Assembly: GCA_944325555.1 (NCBI GenBank)
Contig: CALVAN010000003.1
Span: forward strand, 62,001 to 126,000
DNA length: 64,000 bases
Direction of reading: 5' to 3'
Source of the DNA: Candidatus Gastranaerophilales bacterium
GTDB taxonomy: Bacteria > Cyanobacteriota > Vampirovibrionia > Gastranaerophilales > Gastranaerophilaceae
Shown in pieces: positions 6,660 through 51,417 of this stretch (position 1 is the stretch's first letter; every line of letters starts with the position of its first letter). The translations under genes and the position numbers were made by a program. Under the pieces are notes generated by a model. The model was not told where the DNA came from. It did not search any database and saw only the letters and a list, made by a program, of their open reading frames with translations.

Positions 6660-6688
6660 TAAAAAAATGTCCTTAATATAATGTCTGA

Positions 6689-6842
6689 GTGGGACCTCGC
6701 TTGTAGGAGTGGTACACGGAGTGCGAGTGGCGCCGAGTCTAGCATCTTACGGAAGTGACCCCATGCACTTGTTGCGGGTACCCTTGTTGTATAGCCAATA
6801 TTGTACTTGTTTATTGTACCCGTTCAATAAGTTGTCGGGGTT
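6689..6842 (+). ncRNA. Candidate structured non-coding RNA
   Basis: A GC-rich island (57 of 95 bases G or C in 6688-6782) stands out from very AT-rich flanks, with no open frame of use. The 3' half folds into a long hairpin: CCCC (6759-6762) with GGGG (6837-6840), ACTTGTTG (6767-6774) with CAATAAGT (6825-6832, one G-U), and CGGGTAC (6775-6781) with GTACCCG (6816-6822). The 5' half has CTCGC pairing with GCGAG and a small hairpin around 6743-6757. TATAAT at 6677-6682 would place a start near 6689. I could not match it to SRP RNA, tmRNA, RNase P or a known riboswitch. Strand is inferred from the promoter. Confidence 0.5.
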
Positions 6843-7135
6843 AGTTGACTATATGAAATTTTTGTAAAAACTAAAACCAAAAAATAAATTTTTTTGCTTT
6901 TAAAAATTTTTTTTACAGTTGCTATATTTTGGTTTTTGCAATTTTGAAAAGTTTTTTCCAATTGTTTTTATCTACTAACAATTGAATCTCTGCAGGGGTC
7001 TTTGGACGCTGAAACATTAATTTCAATCAAAAATTGTATTTAAAATCCCTGTTTGAATATGTTAAGATATGTTAAATTTGTGTTTGACAAATACTCTATG
7101 TGCAAAAAAATGAAATAAAGAACTGATGGTGTGGT
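6843..7135 (+). other. AT-rich intergenic region with one inverted repeat
   Basis: No gene is visible. CAATTGTT (6959-6966) and AACAATTG (6977-6984) form a perfect 8-bp inverted repeat, possibly an operator for the downstream phospholipid operon. The region just before the ATG at 7136 has no good ribosome site. Confidence 0.4.
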
Positions 7136-18033: not shown

Positions 18034-18473
<440 letters not shown>

Positions 18474-35303: not shown

Positions 35304-35610
35304 AGATTAAGAAAAATATCACATAATTTATTGTAGCTCAGTCGGATAAAAATCTAAAGTCTTTGTTGTACTTTAACTCCGTTAAAGATACAACGGTGAG
35401 CTACGGACACAGATTAAGGAAAATATTACACAATTTATTGTAGCTCAGTCGGATAAAAATCTAAAGTCTTTGTTGTACTTTAACTTCGTTAAAGGTACAA
35501 CGGTGAGCTACGGGCACAGATTAAGAAAAATATCACATAATTTATTGTAGCTCAGTCGGATAAAAATCTAAAGTCTTTGTTGTACTTTAACTTCGTTAAA
35601 GGTACAACGT
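35291..35610. repeat. Three tandem 107-bp units containing the tRNA-Arg 5' end
   Basis: GTAGCTCA occurs at 35333, 35440 and 35547, an exact 107-bp period. Each unit starts with GAGCTACGGxCAC, identical in position to the first bases of tRNA-Arg, which is the first copy. Each has a hairpin (GTTGTACTTTAAC with GTTAAAGxTACAAC) and an inverted copy of the D-arm, so GTAGCTCA...TGAGCTAC closes an outer stem. Only a few substitutions separate the copies. Confidence 0.9.
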
Positions 35611-50308: not shown

Positions 50309-50393
50309 TGGTGTCGACGGCGGGACTTGAACCCGCACGGGTTTCCCCACACGCCCCTCAAACGTGCGCGTATACCGATTCCGCCACGTCGAC
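50309..50393 (-). tRNA. tRNA-Leu (anticodon GAG)
   Basis: Acceptor GTCGACG/CGTCGAC, D-arm, anticodon loop TTTGAGG, long variable arm, T-loop TTCAAGT, discriminator A and encoded CCA. A partial copy of its 5' end lies 92 bp upstream. Confidence 0.95.
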
Positions 50394-50494
50394 ATCAATA
50401 TTTTATTTTCAAATGTCTTGCGTATACCTCCCCTCTCCTCGAAATGACATTTAGTCATTTCTCGTCGGCAGAGTGCCACGTCGACATCAATATT
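50383..50494. repeat. Duplicated tRNA-Leu(GAG) 5' end with hairpin
   Basis: GCCACGTCGACATCAATATT occurs at 50383-50402, where it includes the tRNA 5' end, and again at 50475-50494. Between them is the hairpin GAAATGAC-ATTTA-GTCATTTC (50441-50461) followed by CGGCAGAGTGCCAC, a junction also seen at tRNA-Leu(CAG). Confidence 0.85.
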
Positions 50495-50580
50495 AAATTT
50501 TCAACAAAAACTATATTACTATAAACATAATTTTTGTAAAATTCTTTTTATTACCTCTCTCAAAGAGAGGGAGGGAAAAC

Positions 50581-50854
50581 TGCCGATGAAGGGTCGGCTT
50601 GCAATGTAGGCGAAGAATGAGCCGTACAGTGCAGGATACTCGAAGAGTAAACCACCGTTGTTCGTAAGAACAACAGGGGTGAAGAGTCCAAGTATCAGAC
50701 CTTCTTTGTTTTAAAATTGCCGAAGAAGGGTCGGCTTGCAATGTAGGCGAAGAATGAGCCGTACAGTGCAGGATACTCGAAGAGTAAACCACCGTTGTTC
50801 GTAAGAACAACAGGGGTGAAGAGTCCAAGTATCAGACCTTCTTTGTTTTAAAAT
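50581..50854. repeat. Two tandem 137-bp units in phase with the tRNA-Leu(CAG) 3' end
   Basis: TGCCGAxGAAGGG occurs at 50581, 50718 and 50855, exactly 137 bp apart. The third is the true tRNA 3' end. Each unit includes GTTGTTC-GTAA-GAACAAC and a long shared spacer. The two units are almost identical. Confidence 0.9.
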
Positions 50855-50935
50855 TGCCGATGAAGGGACTCGAACCCCCATGAGTTTCCTCGCACGCACC
50901 TGAAGCGTGTGCGTCTACCATTTCGCCACATCGGC
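50855..50935 (-). tRNA. tRNA-Leu (anticodon CAG)
   Basis: Acceptor GCCGATG/CATCGGC, D-arm GCGAAATGG, anticodon loop TTCAGGT on a 5-bp stem, long variable arm, T-loop TTCGAGT, discriminator A, no encoded CCA. Copies of its 3' and 5' ends flank it on both sides. Confidence 0.94.
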
Positions 50936-51327
50936 AAAGTCCAAAATTTGTTATCAAAGTTCAATAAAAGCGCCTCAATGGCGAAGGTACTCACTGGCGT
51001 TCGTACACCTCTCGAAAAACGATACTCAATCGTTTTTCTCGGCAGAGTGCCACATCGGCATTTAAAAAATCAAAGTACAATCCTTTGTGGCGAAGCAGCT
51101 GCGCTGCGGTTCCAATAAGCAGGGCAAAAACAATACTCAATTGTTTTTGCTTGTTTTTTTAGCTTTTTGGTTCCTGCCACATCGGCAAAGTCCAAAATTT
51201 GTTATCAAAGTTCAATAAAAGCGCCTCAATGGCGAAGGTACTCACTGGCGTTCGTACACCTCTCGAAAAACGATACTCAATCGTTTTTCTCGGCAGAGTG
51301 CCACATCGGCATTTAAAAAATCAAAGT
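50925..51327. repeat. 152-bp direct repeat with four copies of the tRNA-Leu(CAG) 5' end
   Basis: The segments 50925-51076 and 51176-51327 are identical, 251 bp apart. GCCACATCGGCA, the tRNA 5' end, occurs at 50925, 51049, 51176 and 51300. Hairpins GAAAAACGAT-ACTCA-ATCGTTTTTC (51014-51038, repeated at 51265) and GCAAAAACAAT-ACTCA-ATTGTTTTTGC (51124-51150) share a loop, and their stems differ by paired changes. Confidence 0.9.
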
Positions 51328-51417
51328 TCAATCTTGAATCAGCAACCGAATCAAGTATATCTATAATAAAATCAATTATTCTCTACGTCAATAAAAATTT
51401 CATGCTATTCTATAAAT

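Follow-up and report, generated by a model that had tools for sequence, protein, structure and literature searches.

Covarying hairpins in duplicated tRNA ends of a Gastranaerophilales genome form a family that is most likely mobile at the DNA level

The tRNA-Leu genes, their stubs and the hairpins

The window analysed here is a stretch of 64,000 nucleotides from a Candidatus Gastranaerophilales genome, and it contains two intact leucine tRNA genes on the minus strand, tRNA-Leu(GAG) at 50309..50393 and tRNA-Leu(CAG) at 50854..50936. Next to both genes, on the same strand, their ends are repeated in partial form; these copies are here called stubs. On the 5' side of tRNA-Leu(CAG) there are three units of 124-127 bp, all of which begin with nt 1-12 of the tRNA itself: unit 1 (type A, 124 bp, 50937..51060), which opens with TGCCGATGTGGC, unit 2 (type B, 51061..51187) and unit 3 (51188..51311), which is of type A like unit 1. 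Two 137-bp tandem units on its 3' side, in each of which the tRNA 3' end is repeated, occupy 50576..50849, and tRNA-Leu(GAG) has a 92-bp 5' stub unit at 50394..50485, starting with GTCGACGTGGC. A putative sigma-70-like promoter (TTGACG-17-TATTAT, 51363..51391, minus strand), recognised by its match to the consensus, was found upstream of the whole array, so that the 5' stubs probably lie within the tRNA precursor.

As the first-pass annotation had reported, hairpins lie beside tRNA-Leu(CAG) and tRNA-Leu(GAG), and all three that it named were found in the sequence at the positions given. The nearest 5' stub of tRNA-Leu(CAG) carries ACTCTGCCGA-GAAAAACGAT-TGAGT-ATCGTTTTTC-GAGAGG at 51008..51048, and an identical copy lies in the outermost 5' stub at 51259..51299; the stem-loop GAAAAACGAT-ACTCA-ATCGTTTTTC is present at 51014-51038 and again at 51265-51289. 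The type B stub, a type also seen in two relatives (G018 and G022), carries GCAAAAACAAT-TGAGT-ATTGTTTTTGC at 51124..51150. The hairpin in the 5' stub of tRNA-Leu(GAG) spans 50432..50474 and reads ACTCTGCCGA-CGA-GAAATGAC-TAAAT-GTCATTTC-GAG-GAGAGG, with tandem G.A mismatches beneath the stem and GAAATGAC-ATTTA-GTCATTTC at about 50442-50462. All these features are on the minus strand, the strand of the tRNA genes; the loops there read TGAGT, TGAGT and TAAAT, and appear as ACTCA or ATTTA on the other strand. The flanks ACTCTGCCGA...GAGAGG are common to three of the four window hairpins. The GCAAAAACAAT hairpin has flanks unrelated to CTCTGCCGA/GAGAGG and sits in a GGAACC...GGAACC unit.

Between the GAAAAACGAT and GCAAAAACAAT hairpins, the exchange of an inner G-C pair for A-T had been noticed before, together with an extra outer pair, and both observations are correct; a second two-sided difference, G-C versus C-G at the 10th pair from the loop, had been overlooked. 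All window hairpins fold better than shuffles, with z of -2.4 to -3.8 as RNA and -4.2 to -4.8 as DNA. The two copies of the GAAAAACGAT hairpin are parts of one 158-bp duplication with 99% identity, so there are only three independent hairpins in the window, and the GAAAAACGAT and GCAAAAACAAT hairpins lie in different stub types and therefore do not represent a simple before and after of one site. The above-chance evidence is supplied by the hairpin family, not by the window.

Stubs were present at 23 of the 42 tRNA genes in the genome (5' stubs at 15, 3' stubs at 13), whereas the ends of other tRNAs, searched in the same flanks as a control, were found in 10/1510 and 4/1598 cases (<1%). A genome of another genus that carries the hairpin element had stubs at 13 of 31 tRNA genes, and an element-free genome of another family had them at 0/32 genes on the 5' side and 3/32 on the 3' side. 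At least 9 nt of the own tRNA occurred inverted in 8 of the 15 5' stubs, compared with 3.1% for other tRNAs, and the longest such copy, 16 nt, belongs to tRNA-Arg(CCG) in the window. Two 107-bp 5' stub units of this gene (35304-35517) lack a CTCTGCCGA element, and in each of them tRNA nt 7-22 recur in inverted form, over 16 nt. At 18294-18383, tRNA-Ser(CGA) has a 3' stub unit of 90 bp in which the T-arm is repeated in inverted orientation. Element-free stubs hold other hairpins at the equivalent place. Inverted tRNA arms in stubs would be the expected trace of template switching at the tRNA-gene hairpin. Contigs of several genus members (seven loci) end in or beside the orthologous tRNA-Leu stub array, so that tRNA-end arrays break short-read assemblies, and copy numbers are therefore lower bounds. 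No published description of tRNA-end arrays was found in a literature search of incomplete coverage.

A dispersed element family with covarying stems

The pattern CTCTGCCGA-N15-45-GAGAGG gave 86 matches in the genome, a few of them being one element counted twice, and 0 in the reversed control; the exact-flank family pattern was (S)ACTCTGCCGA-[stem-loop-stem]-GAGAGG(TAG). Genome counts are based on pattern searches and individual stretches, and all genomes compared are metagenome-assembled. The element was found in 38 of 59 relatives, namely in each of the 22 further members of the genus that were sampled, in most genera of the family and in few genomes further out. When a stricter pattern was run against 84,980 named species, almost all of the hits among the matches listed belonged to Candidatus Gastranaerophilales or to unnamed rumen or gut genomes. 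Fifty-eight non-redundant contexts share the foot alone, and outside it the conserved letters are (S)A before and TAG after. The invariance of the foot in alignments is a consequence of the search pattern, and a loop-based scan recovered related feet which themselves co-vary (CTCTG...TAGAG, CTCCG...TGGAG and CTCCATTGA...GAAATGGAG). The element ends with ACTCTGCCGA and GAGAGGTAG, GTAG lies 3' of the hairpin, and the complementary strand starts CTAC. Loops are conserved (TAAAT, TGAGT, TAAGT, NGT) and stems are not.

Several candidate identities were rejected. A two-step origin, with a hairpin entering an empty CTCTGCCGAGAGG hairpin, is not borne out, as no empty form occurred in any genus member and only 2 matches were seen in family f7; an empty foot ACTCTGCCGAGAGG was likewise absent from the genus. 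The element is not an integron attC site, because the GTTRRRY/RYYYAAC core ends are absent. With regard to a viral or plasmid origin, phage and plasmid collections gave 0 exact matches to the element, and the aligned pieces mapped to the tRNA gene only; there was no strict viral match, and a loose viral scan gave chance matches, one contig passing the hairpin filter. A kink-turn (UGCC plus tandem G.A) was considered from sequence, but the bulge length departs from the standard 3 nt.

Covariation was scored against shuffles, which ignore relatedness, and against slid partners, a control which does not. Across the 25-nt core of 49 distinct elements, two-sided changes occurred in 10 of 10 stem pairs (161 such cells), 94.6% of cells were paired compared with 72.5% after shuffling, and the covariation score was 0.591 against 0.173 ± 0.014 (0/500 shuffles), with slid partners at 0.166 or below. 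The 29-nt core of 36 elements gave a score of 0.334 against 0.097 ± 0.012. With more copies in the test, covariation was far above the background set by both controls, and the earlier proposal that the fold is kept through compensatory change holds at the scale of the family.

The stem pairs that are not Watson-Crick (n = 150) comprised 74 G.A/A.G, mostly tandem, 27 G.G and 26 (17%) wobble pairs, while wobble accounts for 82% of such pairs in tRNA acceptor stems. Tandem G.A/A.G pairs (CGA...GAG, GGA...GAC) were seen under many stems, and a single G.G mismatch recurs in the TAAAT-loop class. The ratio of one-sided to two-sided changes failed as a discriminator, because tRNA acceptor stems behave alike.

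Orientation, orthologous sites and alternative explanations

Functional RNA structure is conventionally proved by covariation, and the first-pass annotation had argued from the paired changes to a function at the DNA or RNA level. The covariation and the kept fold stand, but function does not follow here from covariation alone. Whole hairpins, loop included, are swapped between species at orthologous stubs: the tRNA-Leu(GAG) stub has CGAGAAATGAC-TAAAT here, ACAAAAACGAT-TGAGT in G016 and CGAGAAAGTGAC-TAAAT in G018, and the tRNA-Leu(CAG) stub has GAAAAACGAT-TGAGT here and CGAGTAAGTGAC-TAAAT in G012, with the other stub type in G018 and G022; in G004 the tRNA is present without a stub. The orientation of the element is set by the tRNA arm and not by transcription, as it was on the tRNA strand in 86 of 86 cases in 5' stubs (forward, at the D-loop) and on the opposite strand in 16 of 16 cases in 3' stubs (reversed, at the T-loop). 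Moreover, template switching in replication can create hairpins and multi-base compensatory changes and keep hairpins perfect, with the loop retained (PMC8794818), and the stubs hold inverted tRNA arms. A constraint on the hairpins at the DNA level is more likely than one at the RNA level.

An RNA function is the less likely reading. In its specific form, the hairpins would be a structured RNA element in the tRNA precursor, acting in processing, in insulating the truncated tRNA half or in termination, with the covariation produced by selection for the RNA fold; we consider this unlikely. Strong covariation and conserved loops would suit such an element, as would an array placed between a promoter-like site and the tRNA, and the tandem G.A and G.G mismatches, which are conserved and not random. 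The tRNA-Leu(CAG) stubs also persist in most readable genus members, which could mean selection. However, the element is asymmetric and yet lies reversed in all 3' stubs, and many copies lie away from tRNA genes without strand bias: outside tRNA genes and the long repeat described below, the gene 5' of the element was on the same strand in 10 cases and on the opposite strand in 12. The scarcity of wobble compared with tRNA stems also speaks against it, as does the Rfam search, in which no family exceeded its gathering score and the matches were to tRNA only.

Mutational maintenance alone is a quite improbable account. Arm-to-arm template switching would then perfect the palindromes and make new stems, giving covariation with neither selection nor transposition. 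Such switching is documented for hairpins and for compensatory changes with the loop kept (PMC8794818), and the inverted tRNA-arm copies in the stubs and the few wobble pairs agree with it. That one foot recurs in 58 unrelated contexts is left unexplained, however, and the recurrent G.A and G.G mismatches persist though correction should remove them.

The genome also contains a dispersed repeat of about 180 nt, in which the same site holds the hairpin element in some copies and lacks it in others. A copy of this non-coding repeat in the window (6682-6857, TGTCTGAGTGGGACCTCGCTTGTA...GTTAGTTGACTATATGAAA) has no element, and the repeat gave no Rfam match at other loci. At several loci it was seen to have at least two fixed sites, either filled or empty and with differing hairpin stems, and it is therefore itself a mosaic of nested hairpins. 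The single gene for a REP-associated tyrosine transposase (RAYT) in the genome (L344:1477-2013; NF047646, 143 bits, cut-off 80) lies between two same-orientation copies of the repeat in a composite-like arrangement, one copy carrying the element and the other not. This repeat-flanked arrangement was absent from most other Y1 transposase loci of relatives.

RAYT genes were found in 18 of 59 relatives, compared with 38 of 59 for the element, and the presence of one did not follow that of the other. Mean element counts in the genus were 38 with RAYT and 31 without, and the element lay near 3 of 28 transposase loci, close to the expectation from element density. A role of RAYT as the mobiliser was not supported, as neither co-occurrence nor counts nor proximity linked it convincingly to the element across relatives. 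That the element is a REP proper mobilised by this RAYT is very unlikely: the one RAYT flanked by the long repeat, with the element in one copy, and the GTAG at the element's end would favour it, but this GTAG lies 3' of the hairpin where REPs have it 5' (PMC8266576), counts are similar with and without the transposase, and only those 3 of 28 loci have an element nearby.

Interpretation and known systems

We conclude that the hairpins are probably a short, non-autonomous, REP/SDR-like palindromic DNA element, which has spread through Gastranaerophilales and settled in duplicated tRNA ends. The family is most likely mobile at the DNA level, the movement being what we infer, and the element looks like spreading palindromic DNA rather than a tRNA regulator. 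It is about 45-50 nt long; its foot is asymmetric and fixed (ACTCTGCCGA ... GAGAGGTAG), its loop is preferably one of a few and its stem varies freely. Copies lie in loops that palindromes already had: forward in the D-loop where a tRNA 5' end has been duplicated, reversed in the T-loop where a 3' end has been, and also at fixed sites of the longer dispersed repeat. The stubs would represent local tandem duplications, either of the leader and the tRNA 5' end or of the tRNA 3' end and the terminator, often with an inverted tRNA arm as left by template switching at the tRNA-gene hairpin. Movement may take place as folded single strands of DNA, with foot and loop as the recognised parts, and stems may stay paired through the need for recognition, through arm-to-arm template switching, or both. 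No strict case of a clean empty and filled site was found, the element replacing 5-7 nt of loop at several sites, and target-site duplications at element sites were not consistent.

A more far-reaching proposal, which we regard as possible though doubtful, is that the element, as a folded DNA single strand, enters other hairpins at their loops, above all in tRNA D- and T-arms, its stem being rewritten as a perfect palindrome with each move or by template switching. Only foot and loop would keep its identity, and the same process would multiply tRNA-gene ends. If so, most tRNA genes of this clade would stand in arrays of partial, partly inverted copies of themselves.

Here a large bacterial family covaries strongly, most likely as a result of template switching or of mobility at the DNA level, and it can serve methods that rely on covariation both as a warning and as a test set. 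In the arrays of tRNA ends, essential genes have been rearranged recurrently and across a clade.

Among known systems, REPs and REPINs with TnpA-REP/RAYT are GTAG-tagged palindromes (PMC3733652, PMC8266576). The element resembles them in being a short extragenic palindrome in tens of copies, with variable stems, an unpaired tag at one end and a RAYT in the genome. It differs from REPs in the opposite polarity of the tag, the unpaired GTAG not being directly 5' of the hairpin foot, in its longer foot (ACTCTGCCGA/GAGAGG), in its location in tRNA arms and in a RAYT presence that does not track copy number. The small dispersed repeats (SDR) of cyanobacteria, reportedly described by Elhai et al. 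in 2008 (cited in PMC3733652), are said to be very small and of hairpin type; judged by description only, the element is like them as a very small dispersed hairpin repeat, in a related phylum. Repetitive or double hairpin elements are also known from mitochondria of sponges (PMC2800124) and of Allomyces (as cited in PMC2800124). Like the present element, these are dispersed and without coding capacity, and their mobility is inferred; in the sponge elements, however, stems are conserved and loops vary, whereas here loops are conserved and stems vary. As for the stubs, the 3' repeats of E. coli tyrT (rtT RNA) are tandem units, each with the end of the adjacent mature tRNA. The tandem units described here carry the end of the adjacent tRNA in the same way, but unlike those of tyrT they flank 23 of the 42 tRNA genes, occur on both sides and contain hairpin elements as well as inverted tRNA arms.
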